Positions 2,409 to 42,919 of a stretch of DNA of 42,919 bases are shown piece by piece. The number at the start of each line of letters is the position of its first letter. The first letter of the stretch is position 1. The notes beneath the pieces are model-generated. The model saw only the letters and a list, made by a program, of their open reading frames with translations, was not told where the DNA came from and did no database searches. This DNA is from a virus. The stretch is taken from IMG/VR virus record IMGVR_UViG_3300047375_000029, positions 1 to 42,919 of that record. One strand, given 5' to 3'. The translations under genes and the position numbers were made by a program.

Positions 2409-4152
2409 TTACGATAGAGACGAGTTACTTACTGACTTCGGTAAGACAACTTTAAAAGATAGGTATTTATTACCAGAAGAAACATCACCGCAAGATGGAT
2501 TTATGAGGGCGGCAAAAGCATTTTCAGATAATGATGAGATGGCAGAAAGAATTTATAATTACGCTAGTAAACTTTGGTTCATGTACTCCACACCTATTTT
2601 ATCTAATGGTGGTACTAACAGAGGTATGCCTATCTCTTGTTTCTTAAATTATGTTGGTGATAGTAGAGAAGGATTAACAGGACACTACACAGAGAATGCT
2701 TGGTTGGCATCTATTGGTGGTGGTATTGGTGGTTACTGGGGACATGTAAGAAGTGATGGTGTTAGTACATCAGGTGGTTCTGCATCTTCAGGTTCAATAC
2801 CTTTTCTTCACGTTGTAGACAGTGAGATACTTGCATTTTCTCAAGGTAAAACAAGGCGTGGAAGTTATGCGGCATATATGGATATGTCACACCCAGAGAT
2901 AATAGAATTTTTAGAAATGCGTAAGCCTAGTGGTGGAGACATACATAGAAAATGTCTTAACCTACATCATGCAATAAATATATCTGATGAGTTTATGCAG
3001 TTGATAGAAAAATGTATTGCTGAACCTACCTATGATGACAGTTGGAATTTAATTGACCCTCATACAAAGAAAGTAATACGAACTGTATCAGCTAGAGAGT
3101 TGTGGCAAAAATTATTAGAGACAAGAGTTGCTACTGGTGAGCCTTATGTTTCATTTATAGATACTATCAATGACGCATTGCCTGAAACACAAAAGAAACT
3201 AGGATTAAAAGTACATCATTCTAATTTATGTACAGAGATTACATTACCTACTAATGAAAATAGAACAGCAGTGTGTTGTTTGTCTTCAGTTAATTTAGAA
3301 AAGTATGAAGAGTGGAAGAATGAACCATTGTTTGTACCAGATTTAGTTAGGTTTTTAGATAATGCTTTGTCCCACTTTATAGAGAATGCACCAGAGAGTG
3401 TGTTCAGAGCAAAGTTTAGTGCGGCTAGTGAAAGAAGTATTGGGTTAGGAGCTATGGGTTTTCACGCATACTTACAATCTAAAGGTATACCTTTTGAAAG
3501 TGCATTGGCTAAAGCTATGAACTTAAAGATATTCAAAAAGATTAAACAAGAAGCTGTAGAAGAAAGTCAAAGACTAGCAATCAAGAGAGGTGAAGCACCT
3601 GATATGGAAGGTACAGGTATGCGTAATGCACACTTGTTAGCCATAGCACCTAACGCATCATCATCTATTATTTGTGGTACGACATCACCATCAATAGAAC
3701 CATACAGAGCTAACGCTTATGTACAGAAAACAATGTCAGGTTCTTTTCTAGTTAAGAATAAATATTTAGAAAAGTTACTAGATAAAAAAGGCATGAACAC
3801 TGATGCAGTGTGGCAATCCATAGTAGCACAGAGAGGTTCAGTATTACATTTAGATGAACTATCTGATTATGAAAAAGATACATTTAAAACATCTATAGAA
3901 ATTAATCAGCAATGGGTAATAGAACATGCGGCAGACAGACAACAGTATGTATGTCAAGGGCAGTCAGTAAATGTATTTGTACCTGCTGATGTAAACATCA
4001 AAGAGTTACATGACATACACATGTTAGCTTGGAAAAGAAAAATAAAAACTTTGTACTATTGTAGAAGTGAAGCAATCAAACGTGCAGAGTTAGTATCAAA
4101 AAAAGTAGAAAGAACAATCATACCAGAAGCCGATTGTTTAGCATGTGAATAA
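2401..4152 (+). CDS. nrdA: Class I ribonucleotide reductase, alpha subunit, 583 aa
   Basis: This is the catalytic subunit that reduces ribonucleotides for phage DNA synthesis. Visible catalytic features are Cys80 (PISCFLN), the N-x-C-x-E triad at 275-279 (NLCTEI), Cys292 (VCCLSSVNL), the Tyr-Tyr pair in KTLYYCRS near the C-terminus, and a C-terminal CLACE giving the Cys579/Cys582 pair used for re-reduction by thioredoxin or glutaredoxin. At 583 aa it is far shorter than E. coli NrdA (761 aa). The N-terminal ATP-cone is missing, since active-site Cys80 lies close to the start. It therefore probably lacks dATP feedback inhibition. Its ATG overlaps the end of the DUF3310 gene; nrdB follows after two tiny genes. 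Confidence 0.95.
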   Translation: MIDYDRDELLTDFGKTTLKDRYLLPEETSPQDGFMRAAKAFSDNDEMAERIYNYASKLWFMYSTPILSNGGTNRGMPISCFLNYVGDSREGLTGHYTENAWLASIGGGIGGYWGHVRSDGVSTSGGSASSGSIPFLHVVDSEILAFSQGKTRRGSYAAYMDMSHPEIIEFLEMRKPSGGDIHRKCLNLHHAINISDEFMQLIEKCIAEPTYDDSWNLIDPHTKKVIRTVSARELWQKLLETRVATGEPYVSFIDTINDALPETQKKLGLKVHHSNLCTEITLPTNENRTAVCCLSSVNLEKYEEWKNEPLFVPDLVRFLDNALSHFIENAPESVFRAKFSAASERSIGLGAMGFHAYLQSKGIPFESALAKAMNLKIFKKIKQEAVEESQRLAIKRGEAPDMEGTGMRNAHLLAIAPNASSSIICGTTSPSIEPYRANAYVQKTMSGSFLVKNKYLEKLLDKKGMNTDAVWQSIVAQRGSVLHLDELSDYEKDTFKTSIEINQQWVIEHAADRQQYVCQGQSVNVFVPADVNIKELHDIHMLAWKRKIKTLYYCRSEAIKRAELVSKKVERTIIPEADCLACE

Positions 4153-4268
4153 TGAAGAGATATATATTAGAAATTATCTATCATTATTCAACAGCTTTAA
4201 CGTCTTGGTCATGGCAAAGATTATACGGAGATAGAAAGAAGGGAGCAGGTTACAACAATGACAGATGA
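4152..4268 (+). CDS. Small hypothetical protein, 38 aa
   Basis: The ATG shares its A with the nrdA stop (TAATG), the usual junction of this genome. The product is short, aromatic and basic: it starts MKRYILEIIYHYSTAL, has a WSWQRLYGDRK stretch and ends in a polar tail. I recognise no domain. It overlaps the next small gene by 11 bases. The tight overlaps on both sides support real translation. It is too short to assign a function; the N-terminal half could be an amphipathic helix. Confidence 0.5.
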   Translation: MKRYILEIIYHYSTALTSWSWQRLYGDRKKGAGYNNDR

Positions 4269-5775: not shown

Positions 5776-7335
5776 ATGGAATACGCAGGTAGTTTACAGA
5801 AAGCTCATACAGCTAAAGAACGATATCTTAAACTACAACAAGATAGAGAACATTATTTAGATAGAGCTGAAGAGTGTAGTGAATTAACTATCCCATCGCT
5901 TATTAAACCTGAAGGTTTTACATCTTCAGATGAACTATACAATCCATTCCAATCAGTTGGTGCAAGAGGTGTCAACAATTTAGCAAGTAAACTTCTTTTA
6001 TTATTGCTTCCCCCTAACTCCCCATTTTTTAGATTATCAATTACAGGTGACGCTAAAAAAGAATTAGAAGAAAATAAAGACATGAAGACTGACATAGAGA
6101 AGTCTTTGTCTGTAATAGAAAAAGAAGTGTCAGGTAAAATTGAACAACTAGCATTAAGAGTTAGTGTGTTTGAAGCTCTTAAACATCTTATTGTAGGTGG
6201 TAACGTATTAACTTACTTACCTAAAAAAGGTAGCATGAGAGTGTTTCCTTTATCACAGTATGTAGTTAGAAGAGATGCTTCAGGTAATGTACTAGAAGTA
6301 GTTATCTGTGAGAAAGCAAGTATTTTATCTTTAGGTAAAGATGTAACTGCACAAGTTATTTCTGACCCAGATTATAAGTCAGATGAAGACATAGAATTAT
6401 ACACACATATTTACAAATTAAATGAGAATGAGTTTTATGTTTGCCAAGAAGTAAACGGAATTAAAATACCAGAAAGTATTGGTACATTTAAAAAAGAAAG
6501 AATGCCTTACCAAGCATTAAGAATGGTAAGAGTTGACAATGAAGATTATGGCAGAGGATATGTAGAAGAATTTTTAGGTGATTTAAAATCATTAGAAGGT
6601 TTATCACAAGCACTTGTAGAGAGTGCGGCGGCATCATCTAAAATAGTATTCATGGTTAGACCTAACTCTGTTACTAGAAAAAAAGATTTAGCTATGACTA
6701 GAAATGGTGACATCATTACTGGTACGGCTGATGATGTGTCTGTACTACAAGCACAGAAACAATATGATTTACAAGTAGTAGAAAGAAGTATTGCTAAACT
6801 AGAAGAAAGAATGTCTTACGCATTCTTACTACACACAGCAATCCAAAGAGATGCAGAAAGAGTTACTGCACAAGAAATTAGATACATGGCAGAACAATTA
6901 GAGACTGCTATGGGTGGTATTTATTCATTACTATCACAAGAGTTCCAACTACCATTAGTTTCTATACTGATGAAAAGAATGGAACAAGCAAATGAAATAC
7001 CAAAACTACCTAAAGGTACAGTTCAACCAACTATTATTACTGGTATTGAAGCATTAGGTAGAGGTAATGATTTACAAAAATTAAGAGAATTTGTTGCAGA
7101 GATAGGAAATCTTGCACAGATAAATCCGCAAGTTGTTCAGGCGTTAAACCCTGATGATTTAATCAAACGTATCGCTATTGGTTTAGGGATTGATACAGAT
7201 GGTTTATTAAAATCACAAGAGCAACTAGCAGAAGAACAAGCGGCAGAAGCAGAGCAAATGGAACAACAACAAATGGTTCAGATGGCAGAGAAAGCTATCC
7301 CACAAGTCGCAAACAATCTAACTAAACCACAATAA
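5776..7335 (+). CDS. Head-tail connector (portal), T7 gp8-like, 519 aa
   Basis: This is the portal ring subunit through which DNA is packaged and ejected. Length and order (before scaffold and capsid) match T7 gp8 (536 aa). Typical stretches are the early YLDRAEECSELTIPSLI, then GARGVNNLASKLLLLLLPP, and later YGRGYVEEFLGDLKSLEG, all characteristic of the Podoviridae head-tail connector family. The C-terminus is Glu/Gln-rich (EEQAAEAEQMEQQQ), predicted to be a helix or coiled coil as in the T7 wing/crown region. The start is the ATG at 5776, just after the preceding stop. Confidence 0.95.
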   Translation: MEYAGSLQKAHTAKERYLKLQQDREHYLDRAEECSELTIPSLIKPEGFTSSDELYNPFQSVGARGVNNLASKLLLLLLPPNSPFFRLSITGDAKKELEENKDMKTDIEKSLSVIEKEVSGKIEQLALRVSVFEALKHLIVGGNVLTYLPKKGSMRVFPLSQYVVRRDASGNVLEVVICEKASILSLGKDVTAQVISDPDYKSDEDIELYTHIYKLNENEFYVCQEVNGIKIPESIGTFKKERMPYQALRMVRVDNEDYGRGYVEEFLGDLKSLEGLSQALVESAAASSKIVFMVRPNSVTRKKDLAMTRNGDIITGTADDVSVLQAQKQYDLQVVERSIAKLEERMSYAFLLHTAIQRDAERVTAQEIRYMAEQLETAMGGIYSLLSQEFQLPLVSILMKRMEQANEIPKLPKGTVQPTIITGIEALGRGNDLQKLREFVAEIGNLAQINPQVVQALNPDDLIKRIAIGLGIDTDGLLKSQEQLAEEQAAEAEQMEQQQMVQMAEKAIPQVANNLTKPQ

Positions 7336-29738: not shown

Positions 29739-30151
29739 ACCAAACAAAAGAAGCCGTTAAAAAAGAAGAAGGCTATAGATTAGAAACATATCATTGTACA
29801 GAAGGACATCTTACAGGTGGCTATGGTCACAAGATGTTAAAAGGAGAGACAGCTCCTACAGACCACGCAGGTTGGTTAGTATTATTCGAAAGAGACTTTG
29901 CTAGAGCTGTAACTGGTGCTGATGATTTACTGATGTTATGTCCTGATATTAACGACAGTGCAAGGAACATTGTGGTTGAGATGGTGTACCAAATGGGTGC
30001 TTATGGGGTGTCCAAGTTTAAGGGTATGCTTAAAGCATTACAAGATGGGAACTATAAGACAGCCAGTGTGGAGATGCTAGATAGTAGATGGGCTAAACAA
30101 ACTCCTAATCGTGCTAATCGAATGGCAGAACGCATGGCGAATATTTCATAG
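29729..30151 (+). CDS. Endolysin, T4 lysozyme-like (GH24), 140 aa
   Basis: This is a peptidoglycan muramidase. The catalytic pattern Glu-8 residues-Cys-5 residues-Thr is present as Glu14, Cys23 and Thr29 (EEGYRLETYHCTEGHLTGGY). In T4 lysozyme the middle residue is Asp20, but phage members with Cys are known and T4 D20C is active. GYGHK and a C-terminal RWAKQTPNRANRMA fit the family. There is no signal peptide, so it would need the holin. With the gp3.5 homologue apparently inactive, this is probably the only wall-degrading enzyme. It overlaps terminase by 10 bases and is the last gene before the intergenic region. Confidence 0.92.
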   Translation: MDINQTKEAVKKEEGYRLETYHCTEGHLTGGYGHKMLKGETAPTDHAGWLVLFERDFARAVTGADDLLMLCPDINDSARNIVVEMVYQMGAYGVSKFKGMLKALQDGNYKTASVEMLDSRWAKQTPNRANRMAERMANIS

Positions 30152-30161
30152 AAAATTATGA

Positions 30162-30198
30162 GGGGGTATTCGTATCTACGAAAAGGCTAGTTTCCCCC
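30162..30198 (+). other. Composite hairpin after the lysozyme gene
   Basis: GGGGG (30162-30166) can pair with CCCCC (30194-30198), enclosing a perfect TTCGTA/TACGAA stem with a two-base loop at 30169-30182. An alternative stem GGCTA (30185-30189) with TAGCC (30200-30204) competes with the outer pairing. Confidence 0.55.
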
Positions 30199-30208
30199 AT
30201 AGCCGACC

Positions 30209-30258
30209 AAAAAACCACGCCAAAAGAACAAAAAGATAGGCGTTTAGCGGTTTTTTTT
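30209..30258 (+). terminator. Terminator at the end of the late gene block
   Basis: AAAAAACC and ACGCC at 30209-30221 pair with GGCGT (30239-30243) and GGTTTTTT (30249-30256) with a 5-base bulge. A run of eight T follows. It would end late transcription after the lysozyme gene. Confidence 0.75.
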
Positions 30259-30404
30259 GTGTATAAGGATAGCATGTCCTTTGCGTATGCTGTGTGTGGG
30301 CGTACTTTTTTTATTTTCGCATGTGCTTGAGCTAGTCTGTTTTTTTGCTTTAGTCTTTATGTGTACGCATGGTGTGTGCGTTGCTCTCTTTAAGTTCCAC
30401 GCCT

Positions 30405-30466
30405 AGCCACACCCAAAGCACCACCACAAGCACCACCACAAGCCACACAGAGCCACGCACAGCCAC
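30405..30466 (+). repeat. C-rich short-repeat array (AGCCAC / AGCACC units)
   Basis: Units beginning AGCCAC or AGCACC start at 30405, 30417, 30429, 30441, 30451 and 30461, so the spacing is 12, 12, 12, 10 and 10 bases. Strand-biased C/A-rich DNA continues to about 30480. The composition differs sharply from the AT-rich surroundings. It lies between late terminator and promoter copy C, in the presumed genome-end region. Confidence 0.75.
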
Positions 30467-30509
30467 GCCAACGCACCAACGCAGGGCAGAGGTCAAAGGT
30501 ATTTTAATT

Positions 30510-30528
30510 ACTAAAGTTACACTATTAG
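30510..30528 (+). promoter_or_regulatory. Phage RNA polymerase promoter, copy C
   Basis: ACTAAAGTTACACTATTAG differs from copy D by one base. It stands in the gene-poor genome-end region, where T7 has its end promoters (phiOL/phiOR) that serve replication. It may also transcribe the small candidate gene at 30634. Confidence 0.75.
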
Positions 30529-30633
30529 ATGAGAGCAAAGAAAAGAAGATACTCTGTGTATCTCTTAAAGTATCTCTAAAGGTATAGACCAAAGGACAAC
30601 AACAAGCACAACAAAGGATAGTTATTATTAATA

Positions 30634-30798
30634 ATGATACAGAGAAAAGACTGGCTAAAGACAGACGCAGGGAAGCAATACAAAGCTAGAAGCAATAAGA
30701 ATTATAGACAAAAGAAACAACAGACAAAGAAGGACAATATTAAAGTAAATAAATCTTTTGATTTTCACTTTCCTTGCGGAATTACTTTAAAAGAATAA
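30634..30798 (+). CDS. Candidate small basic protein, 54 aa
   Basis: The open frame begins MIQRKDWLKTDAGKQYKARS, continues with a Lys/Gln-rich stretch and ends SFDFHFPCGITLKE. It lies downstream of promoter copy C. An AAGGA sequence lies 15 bases upstream of the ATG, further than ideal. No family is recognised. The composed, non-repetitive C-terminus favours a real gene, but its place in the genome-end region makes this uncertain. Confidence 0.4.
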   Translation: MIQRKDWLKTDAGKQYKARSNKNYRQKKQQTKKDNIKVNKSFDFHFPCGITLKE

Positions 30799-30819
30799 CT
30801 ATCCACACATAACATCTTA

Positions 30820-30874
30820 TCCTATCCCACATAATCCCATTATTTCCTATTATATCCCATTTAATCCTATAATA
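30820..30874 (+). repeat. Phased TCCYA array, 10-base period
   Basis: TCCCA or TCCTA begins at 30825, 30835, 30845, 30855 and 30865, exactly 10 bases apart, with one further TCCTA at 30820. The spacers are A/T only. All copies face one side of the helix. T7 carries arrays of a 7-base CCTAAAG repeat next to its terminal repeats; the place is comparable. A TATAAT at 30868 falls inside the last unit but has no convincing -35. Confidence 0.75.
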
Positions 30875-30963
30875 GCGTAAAATATGGCTTATTTAACTAT
30901 TTTAAATTATTTTAACTTTTTTTGATTTTAGGGGTTGCAATCCACAAATGCATCTGTACAAGG

Positions 30964-30981
30964 ACGTTATAACGTTTTTTT
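30964..30981. other. Perfect 12-base palindrome followed by T run
   Basis: ACGTTATAACGT at 30964-30975 is its own reverse complement and is followed by seven T (30975-30981). It could be an operator or a weak terminator. The sequence around it (30900-31010) is extremely A/T-rich and otherwise holds no gene. Confidence 0.6.
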
Positions 30982-31086
30982 AAAATTTTTTTATCTAGCA
31001 CAAAAAAAAATACTGCCAAAAGCGGTTCAATCCTTATTGGGTTTAATCTGGGCTAGTTGTCTTTAAAGCTTTTGGAAACTCCACAC

Positions 31087-31193
31087 GCAGGAGGGAACGG
31101 CTCTTAATTGAGATAAGCCCCTGCAAATCATTTGCGGTTCTTAATCTGCAAACACTATTTTTTTTTAGTGCTTACAGATTGCGACACGCAATC
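31087..31193 (+). ncRNA. Folded leader upstream of the early operon
   Basis: Consecutive stems are visible. GCAGG (31087-31091) pairs with CCTGC (31120-31124), with a 7-base bulge and an inner GGCT/AGCC. GCAAAT/ATTTGC lies at 31123-31135. AATCTG (31143-31148) pairs with CAGATT (31175-31180), and CACTA with TAGTG around an 8-T loop. GATTGCG/CGCAATC lies at 31177-31193. Some stems exclude each other, so alternative folds are possible. I match it to no known riboswitch. Confidence 0.45.
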
Positions 31194-31207
31194 AATCAAC
31201 AATCAAC
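31191..31207 (+). promoter_or_regulatory. Shared leader motif, copy 1
   Basis: ATCAATCAACAATCAAC lies between the last leader stem and the GGAG ribosome binding site of the gene at 31220. The same ATCAACAATCAA core recurs before four other genes. Confidence 0.6.
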
Positions 31208-31219
31208 ATGGAGTACACT

Positions 31220-31537
31220 ATGAAAGTAAAAAACATGACAAGTGCAAAAGGCAACAAGATAGCAAATCAATTTATTATTGATGACAACAATGGAAACACA
31301 TTTTTTCAAAGTTATAATTCAATAATTTGTAAAGTTAATTTTGATGAAATTGTTTTAGATAAAACGTACTGGAATTATTCAGTTACAACATCTAAATATT
31401 TAAATAAATTTCTTTGCATGACTACAAAAGAGGTCAAAGAAAAAATCAAGTCGGGTTTGTATAAATTAGCCGATTTAAATACTGGCGTATCTTATGAGCC
31501 TATCCCTTCATTAACTGACAATACATGGAGGTCTTAA
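31220..31537 (+). CDS. Early protein, DUF8033-like, 105 aa
   Basis: This is the first firm gene of the early region. The sequence runs KVKNMTSAKGNKIANQFII, then FFQSYNSIICKV and YWNYSVTTSKYLNKFLCMTT. The pattern NQFII...FQSYxSxI...WxYSxTTxKYxxxFL is one I know from a short phage family (DUF8033-like) of unknown function. The ATG at 31220 is chosen because GGAG lies 7 bases upstream; the ATG at 31208 would have its start overlap that ribosome binding site. The stop overlaps the next ATG. Confidence 0.75.
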   Translation: MKVKNMTSAKGNKIANQFIIDDNNGNTFFQSYNSIICKVNFDEIVLDKTYWNYSVTTSKYLNKFLCMTTKEVKEKIKSGLYKLADLNTGVSYEPIPSLTDNTWRS

Positions 31538-34372: not shown

Positions 34373-34507
34373 ATGAGGATAGTTGGAAAGTTAGTAATGA
34401 CAATGTTAGTAATAATGGCGTATTCAGGTGTGCATAGGTGCAATAGGATTTGCAATCCTCTGCGTAACCATTCCGCCACGTTGCCCCAACATTGTTTTTA
34501 CAAGTAA
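34373..34507 (+). CDS. Candidate small protein spanning the attachment core, 44 aa
   Basis: The frame reads MRIVGKLVMTMLVIMAYSGV, a hydrophobic signal-like start, then HRCNRICNPLRNHSATLPQH. The second half is encoded by the tRNA-like attachment core. Ribosome binding signal is weak. If real, integration would exchange its C-terminus. The frame may also be fortuitous. Confidence 0.3.
   Translation: MRIVGKLVMTMLVIMAYSGVHRCNRICNPLRNHSATLPQHCFYK
34437..34485 (-). other. attP: attP core: 5' part of a tRNA-Cys-like sequence
   Basis: Read on the minus strand from 34485, the sequence has GGCAACG (5' acceptor strand), TG, a D arm with GCG/CGC stem and GGTTA loop, and an anticodon arm GAGGATTGCAAATCCT with anticodon GCA (Cys). 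After about position 48 it stops resembling a tRNA: no GGTTC T-arm and no 3' acceptor strand follow. A truncated tRNA next to an integrase gene is the classic form of a phage attachment site; a host tRNA-Cys gene is the inferred target. Confidence 0.8.
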
Positions 34508-41627: not shown

Positions 41628-42919
41628 GATACGTCTTTGATATAGAAACAAATGGATTTCTACATCTATGCGATAAGGTACATTGTATTGTACTCAAAGA
41701 CATAGACACAGGAGAGATACTTACACCTAGCAATGAAGATGCTATTAAACTTTTAGAAGACGCAGAGTTAATTATTGGTCATAACATTATTAAGTTTGAT
41801 ATTCCTGTATTAGAGAAATTATATTCCGCTACATTTAAGGGCAAAATTTTCGACACATTAGTGGGTACAAGATTAGTCTATGCAGACATTAAAGAAAGTG
41901 ACTTTTCTAAAAAAGACTTTCCTAAAGATTGTATAGGTAGACACTCATTAAAAGCATGGGGTAATCGTATTGGTGAATACAAAGAACAGATACAAACAGA
42001 TTGGCAAACTTTTACACCAGAGATGTTGGAGTATTGCAAACAAGATACAGAAGTAACATATAAATTATATAAAGTTTTAGAAGAAAAAGGTTACTCCCAA
42101 GAAGCTATGGATTTAGAACATGAAGTAGCTTCTTTAATATTTAAACAAGAGCAACATGGCTTTACTTTTGATAGAGAAAAAGCAGAGGCATTGTCTGTTA
42201 AATTAAAAGCAAGACAAGCAGAGTTAGCTGAAGAATTACAAGGTGTGTTTGAACCTATCGTAGCTGAAAGATGGTCTACTAAAACAGGCAAGAGATTAAA
42301 AGATAGTGTTACTGTATTTAATCCCTCAAGCAGACACCATGTAGCACAAAGATTAAAAGATAAATATGGTTGGAGTGCAGAAGAGTTCACAAGTGATGGC
42401 AAAGCTAAACTTGATGATACAATATTAAGTAAACTACCATACCCAGAAGCTAAAATATTATGTGAAACTTTTTTATTAACTAAAAGAATTGCACAAATAT
42501 CTAATGGTTCACAGGCTTGGTTAAAACATGAACGTGATGGTAAAATTCATGGTACATGTAATACAAATTCGTGTGTAACTCAAAGAGCAAGTCATTCTCA
42601 CCCAAATTTAGGACAGGTGGTTAGTTCGTCTGCACCTTATGGCAGAGAATGCAGAGAATTATTTACAGTACCAGAAGGAAAGCGATTAGTAGGTATAGAT
42701 GTAAGTTCGTTAGAAGTTATGATGCTTTGTCATTTTATGTCAAAGTTTGACAATGGTGAGTACACTAAAGTTGCACTTGAAGGTGACATACACACAGAGA
42801 CACAGAAACTAGCAGGGTTAGACAGCAGAGATTTAGCAAAGCGTTTTTACTATTGCTTTTTATATGGTGGAAGTGTCAAAAAAATTGCTGAAGTAATAAA
42901 CAAACCATTTAAAGAAGCA
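41624..42919 (+). CDS. Family A DNA polymerase, N-terminal part (partial at window end)
   Basis: A TTG start at 41624 gives MRYVFDIETNGFL, the usual beginning of T7-like polymerases. The 3'-5' exonuclease motifs are Asp6 and Glu8 (FDIETN), GHNIIKFDIPVL, and YCKQDTEVTYKLYK. After ELAEELQGVFEP only about 20 residues separate the thumb from FNPSSRHH, where T7 has about 70 residues including the thioredoxin-binding loop. The last 638 bases duplicate the window start with differences: motif A here reads GIDVSSLEVMML, with Met where the other copy and T7 have Arg. The O-helix keeps Arg, Lys and Tyr (RDLAKRFYYCFLYG). The reading frame runs off the window. Confidence 0.95.
   Translation, partial: MRYVFDIETNGFLHLCDKVHCIVLKDIDTGEILTPSNEDAIKLLEDAELIIGHNIIKFDIPVLEKLYSATFKGKIFDTLVGTRLVYADIKESDFSKKDFPKDCIGRHSLKAWGNRIGEYKEQIQTDWQTFTPEMLEYCKQDTEVTYKLYKVLEEKGYSQEAMDLEHEVASLIFKQEQHGFTFDREKAEALSVKLKARQAELAEELQGVFEPIVAERWSTKTGKRLKDSVTVFNPSSRHHVAQRLKDKYGWSAEEFTSDGKAKLDDTILSKLPYPEAKILCETFLLTKRIAQISNGSQAWLKHERDGKIHGTCNTNSCVTQRASHSHPNLGQVVSSSAPYGRECRELFTVPEGKRLVGIDVSSLEVMMLCHFMSKFDNGEYTKVALEGDIHTETQKLAGLDSRDLAKRFYYCFLYGGSVKKIAEVINKPFKEA
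42282..42919. repeat. Terminal overlap, inexact copy of 1-638
   Basis: This is the partner of the repeat at the window start. Amino acid changes include Met for Arg in motif A, Val for Pro after PNLGQV and Glu for Ala after FDNG. Confidence 0.9.

Follow-up and report, generated by a model that had tools for sequence, protein, structure and literature searches.

A helically phased TCCYA array beside a presumed early promoter of a temperate T7-like SAR11 phage: a possible early control element

Introduction

Phage T7 carries short direct repeats near its genome ends, SRL and SRR (unit CCTAAAG; some T7 units read TCCTAAAG), and its left array advances mainly in 12-13 bp steps, directly after the terminal repeat and before phi-OL. 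T7 origins have a phage-polymerase promoter upstream, and plasmid and phage origins combine iterons, which are usually longer than 10-bp units, with a DnaA box and an AT-rich region. Direct repeats spaced by about 10 bp form the P' arm sites of phage lambda, and in the ParR/parC system short head-to-tail direct repeats make up a ribbon-helix-helix operator array. In the integrase-bearing T7-like phage LUZ100, a MarR-like protein is proposed to act at a promoter before the polymerase gene (PMC10134795). Its likeness to the phage studied here lies in a MarR-like gene before the integrase and in a control region that acts, in our phage presumably, on transcription; the difference is that the proposed LUZ100 sites precede the polymerase gene and that the available part of that report describes no phased array (PMC10134795).

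Pelagiphages are among the commonest marine viruses, and the timing of early transcription in their temperate T7-like members is an open question; the available part of the HTVC022P transcriptome paper states that the role of the phage polymerase in early transcription is still to be investigated (PMC12753301). Here we describe an array of TCCYA units near the genome end of such a phage. In a literature search on pelagiphage terminal repeats, promoters, origins and tandem repeats, no title or abstract opening among the papers listed described such an element. A conserved phased array beside a presumed early promoter offers a short, testable target.

Genome context of the array

The window, that is the whole stretch of DNA that was analysed (42,919 bases, one virus record), is most closely related among named phages to the Pelagivirus podophages of SAR11 (HTVC022P, HTVC019P, Jormungand and others), and named Pelagibacter phages account for 23 of the 27 records that match it. 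It encodes a T7-type RNA polymerase, SSB, primase-helicase and DNA polymerase, as well as a MarR-like regulator and a tyrosine integrase. Judged from its sequence, the phage is a Pelagivirus, a temperate T7-like SAR11 phage of the HTVC019P group.

The ends of the window cut the DNA polymerase gene; the genome is therefore permuted, and the TCCYA array lies near the natural left end. Positions 1-638 and 42282-42919 overlap each other at about 83-90% identity, and closure, which falls in the DNA polymerase gene, seems to join sequence from diverged strains. The deposited HTVC019P record has an exact terminal repeat of 162 bp, and the repeat edges given for the window (Table 1) rest on similarity to HTVC019P and were not taken from this phage's own read ends. 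Four contigs from metagenomes (L025, L026, L055 and L057) end within ~ 10 bases before the inner repeat edge, which fits the mapped position. The TCCYA array is thus placed ~ 650 bp inside the genome end and ~ 480 bp from the predicted inner edge of the terminal repeat, and the interval holds a phage promoter and a small gene.

Table 1. Features around the TCCYA array, in their order from left to right.
Feature	Position	Strand	Remark
Predicted direct terminal repeat	30170..30338	+	edges mapped by sequence from HTVC019P
CA-rich regular array, positional match of the T7 left short repeats	30406..30480	+	close to the inner edge of the predicted repeat
Phage RNA polymerase promoter repeat, phi-OL-like	30510..30528	+	one of about six
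Conserved ORF for a 54-aa basic protein	30634..30798	+	ends right before the box
Box CTATCCACACAT, DnaA-box-like ([ACGT]TATNCAC)	30799..30810	+	precedes the first unit by about two helical turns
TCCYA array, five in-step units and one out-of-register TCCTA	30820..30869	+	from sequence; conserved in relatives
Dyad AAATATGGCTTATTT	30880..30894		one of several classes among relatives
AT-rich stretch	30895..30929		before the presumed promoter
Presumed early host-type promoter (promoter-like block), TTGCAA-16-TACAAG	30935..30962	+	weak in the window; relatives show TTGACA or TATAAG variants

Likely phage RNA polymerase promoters with the consensus ACTAAASTTACACTWTTAG are found at 2035, 5359, 10261, 19868, 30510 and 37074, all on the + strand. 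The protein encoded directly upstream of the box (Table 1) is modelled as a single long helix (mean pLDDT 77, pTM 0.38) with no known DNA-binding fold. A tRNA-Cys-like fragment (the likeness was judged by eye) lies on the minus strand at 34436-34487, directly behind the integrase gene, and is the probable attP. HTVC022P, whose integrase is 99% identical to that of the window, is reported to integrate at tRNA-Cys in the available part of its description (PMC12753301). A scan of cellular genomes with the integrase yielded no prophage relative.

Structure and conservation of the TCCYA array

The original prediction placed five TCCYA units on an exact 10-base period, all on the same side of the helix, and the window bears this out. 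The in-register units are TCCCA at 30825, TCCCA at 30835, TCCTA at 30845, TCCCA at 30855 and TCCTA at 30865, and their exact 10-base step keeps them on one face. A sixth unit, TCCTA at 30820, starts five bases upstream of 30825, out of register. The spacers (CATAA, TTATT, TTATA, TTTAA) had been described as A/T only, which is right for every letter but the C at 30830. A strict three-unit pattern gave three overlapping matches in the window and none in 100 dinucleotide shuffles, and the longest period-10 TCCYA chain is five units, against a maximum of two among 200 first-order Markov shuffles. The array, its phase, orientation and position, like the conservation described below, are read directly from the sequences. 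RNA structure of the array is weak (z -1.78), a scan of the window against Rfam at gathering scores found no match, and a permissive scan of 30150-31230 returned only a sub-threshold match to SAM-II.

The unit and period had been predicted to differ from the CCTAAAG arrays of T7, and they do: the steps of the T7 left array are mostly 12-13, whereas the TCCYA array steps by 10 bp and its unit is WANTCCYATA. Both consist of short direct repeats, and both belong to T7-like phages and lie near the genome end. The comparison with arrays beside the terminal repeat did not hold, since the TCCYA array does not directly adjoin the repeat but follows the phi-OL-like promoter, ~ 480 bp inside. Because the T7 left repeats follow the terminal repeat and precede phi-OL, their positional match is the CA-rich array at 30406-30480, not the TCCYA array. 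The CA-rich array recurs in many relatives with a period of 10-12.

Comparison of the 10-base phasing in related phages had been named beforehand as a test. With the conserved 54-aa ORF directly upstream as anchor, we obtained 90 loci with the ORF (two too short) and 45 distinct downstream regions. The phasing is kept: 127 of 133 TCC-to-TCC steps equal 10, four equal 20 and two equal 8, in a count that allowed steps of 6-22 and retained the chain richest in 10s per region, thereby favouring 10 somewhat. Five units are present in 17 of the 45 regions, four in 19, three in three and two in two. The remaining four regions (L031, L483, L484 and L497) have no array, though L031 retains one unit, and at least L031, L484 and L497 retain downstream promoter-region sequence.

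Unit statistics come from a separate earlier set of 31 distinct regions with 133 units (50 distinct), in which 20-base gaps were filled with the intervening unit. The consensus is WANTCCYATA, and the core is conserved at 100% (T), 98% (C) and 97% (C). TCC is on one strand in every unit and the spacers have about 11% G+C, so that the array looks like a selected head-to-tail recognition element rather than a slippage satellite. Spacer identity is 0.66 between units of the same rank in different phages versus 0.50 between units within one array, which indicates that the units are old and not recent slippage copies.

Two further kinds of array were seen. More distant Pelagivirus relatives have a CTTAGG array with steps of ~ 12 bases at the corresponding place (L018 ~ 2265-2330, L093 ~ 6605-6665), and in two phages of another pelagiphage group an early gene is preceded by a 10-base array, CTAGGGGCGA (L017 ~ 1736-1800, L019 ~ 4123-4180).

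Downstream of the array, the presumed host-type promoter matches the hexamers at 8 of 12 positions in the window, where a simple, strict sigma70 scan reports no site at this place; its assignment rests on the relatives with TTGACA or TATAAG. The distance from the array to the -35 element is 70-71, 60, 63, 65 or 43 depending on the class of region, and its helical phase is not constant. The dyad of the window is a possible operator. Between array and promoter, relatives have AATAAGSCTTATT, a TGAGTCA-type, a TGCGACA-type or a fourth dyad or block, and these classes reassort with the modules on the left (T1 with a, b and c; T4 with a and b; T6 with b and c). Since left ORF types pair with several dyad classes, modules have been swapped around an array that was itself retained. 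Such exchange around a retained array is as expected of exchangeable operators and favours a control region.

Possible functions of the array

We consider the TCCYA array to be, at a probability of about 45%, a cis-acting control array of the early region that binds protein cooperatively. Each 10-bp unit would be one recognition site, sharing face and direction with its neighbours. A small DNA-binding protein would probably load head-to-tail along four to five turns of the helix, nucleating a cooperative filament or wrap. Situated 60-110 bp ahead of the presumed early promoter of host type, and next to phage-specific dyads, the array would most likely modulate that promoter and, through it, influence the lytic/lysogenic decision. 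Promoter activity, cooperative binding and the regulatory role are what we infer here; the position of the array, with a conserved ORF on one side and a conserved promoter-like block on the other, is in keeping with them. At least three array-less regions keep the downstream promoter-region sequence, so the promoter can do without the array, and this, together with the non-constant phase between array and promoter, weakens a model of direct activation. In its short head-to-tail repeats, its helical register and its place beside a promoter the array resembles the ribbon-helix-helix operator arrays of the ParR/parC type; a search of the early ORFs, covering part of the small ones, gave no ribbon-helix-helix match. 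A wider and more tentative proposal, which may well prove wrong, is that in SAR11 podophages the phased array nucleates a putative protein filament next to the early promoter, is common to phages with differing operator dyads, and constitutes a control element known neither from T7 nor, within the literature searched, from other T7-like phages.

The main rival is an origin of replication, and the iterons named in the original prediction stay a live alternative, although we regard this as rather unlikely. A protein loaded on the 10-bp iterons would open the AT-rich DNA, with the DnaA-like box on one side and the unwinding stretch on the other, all downstream of the phi-OL-like promoter. The box, the array and the AT-rich stretch do co-occur in that order, as in plasmid and phage origins, whose direct repeats have a DnaA-like box on one side and an AT-rich stretch on the other, and the upstream phage-polymerase promoter is placed as at T7 origins. 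Variation in the box falls mainly on the N position of a DnaA box, and the box precedes the first unit by 21-24 bp in 29 of the 32 regions measured. However, it is degenerate (the last position can be any base) and is found in only 32 of 41 array-bearing regions, being absent from the other nine. The units, at 10 bp, are also short for iterons, the phage encodes its own T7-type replication genes, and no initiator was recognized.

In a packaging signal, the small terminase subunit would bind the phased units near the genome end, in the role presumed for the T7 short repeats. The array does lie near the genome end, but a promoter and a gene separate it from the repeat edge, the T7-like position is held by the CA-rich array, and some relatives have no array; we judge a packaging role improbable. 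Terminase binding, as originally suggested, is at best weakly supported by positional statistics. A scan of IMG/VR for four TCCYA units at period 10 gave at least 80 loci. Fifty of these, chosen so as to exclude pelagiphage loci and a large number of simple or GC-rich repeats, were tested for closeness to TerL, and the 31 with a phrog_2 match entered the count, from which TerL genes recognized by other means (L148, L182) were excluded. In these unrelated phages TerL is no more than 2 kb from the array in 13 of the 31 records versus 7.3 expected (P 0.010), and in 9 of 22 versus 4.8 expected after removal of relatives (P 0.021). The control, 50 loci from a scan with a scrambled unit (18 with a phrog_2 match), is not enriched at 2 kb (6 of 18 versus 6.5 expected) but is so at 3 kb (13 of 18 versus 8.1, P 0.004). 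With enrichment this modest and the control itself enriched at 3 kb, we set TerL proximity aside as evidence for terminase. In individual unrelated phages, TCCCA arrays of period 10 lie next to genes for late transcription activators (L123, L162, L178) or directly after TerL (L111, L121).

There is little to recommend a minisatellite, or an intrinsically bent spacer that acts without bound protein. Many-unit period-10 tandem arrays are widespread in viral and cellular contigs, and the copy number of the present array is variable. However, its spacers diverge while TCC stays, its units are orthologous between phages and not copies of each other, and their orientation is fixed. In the scan of cellular genomes for such arrays the matches listed were mainly rumen or gut Bacteroidales and other repeats, with no SAR11 record among them. 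Bending of the DNA, another function originally put forward, finds no backing in the predicted curvature of 53.6 degrees, which 12% of shuffles reach in a wedge model and which is thus unexceptional; a mere bend is further disfavoured because it would not need TCC always on one strand.

Arm-type sites of attP, bound by integrase or excisionase, are very improbable: the phage is temperate and its ~ 10-bp spaced direct repeats recall the lambda P' arm sites, but the attP candidate is 3.6 kb away and the array does not flank its core, the integrase (290 aa, with a SAM-like match at residues 42-84 and the catalytic domain at 113-271) has no room for an N-terminal arm-binding domain, and only 8 of 50 array-bearing records, unrelated or related, have an integrase match.

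Early leader RNAs

The early leader of the window (31008-31205) is a structured RNA (z -3.55) that belongs to no Rfam family, and it shares the block CTGGGCTAGTTGTCTTTAA with the more distant relatives L018 and L082. The early leaders of many relatives contain type III hammerhead ribozymes, sometimes two in a row, with a GUC or GUA site, a CUGANGA...GAAA core and varying paired stems. Examples are L027 (5808-5863), L003 (971), L004 (2676), L011 (464), L013 (290), L023 (4472 and 4812) and L030 (7064 and 7444), and others occur in L046, L060, L079, L082, L091, L093, L129, L171 and further relatives; none was found in the window. The Rfam Hammerhead_3 match in L027 scores 41.3 bits (E 4e-8), below the curated 48.5, and a scan of 16 loci at the gathering threshold reported no hammerhead. 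A strict core-and-stem scan gave 90 matches (34 distinct) in 502 sequences and none in mononucleotide-shuffled sequence. A literature search for hammerhead ribozymes together with pelagiphages listed a single paper with both terms, a general perspective (PMC6433886). By analogy with the RNase III sites of T7, the leader hammerheads may process early mRNA.
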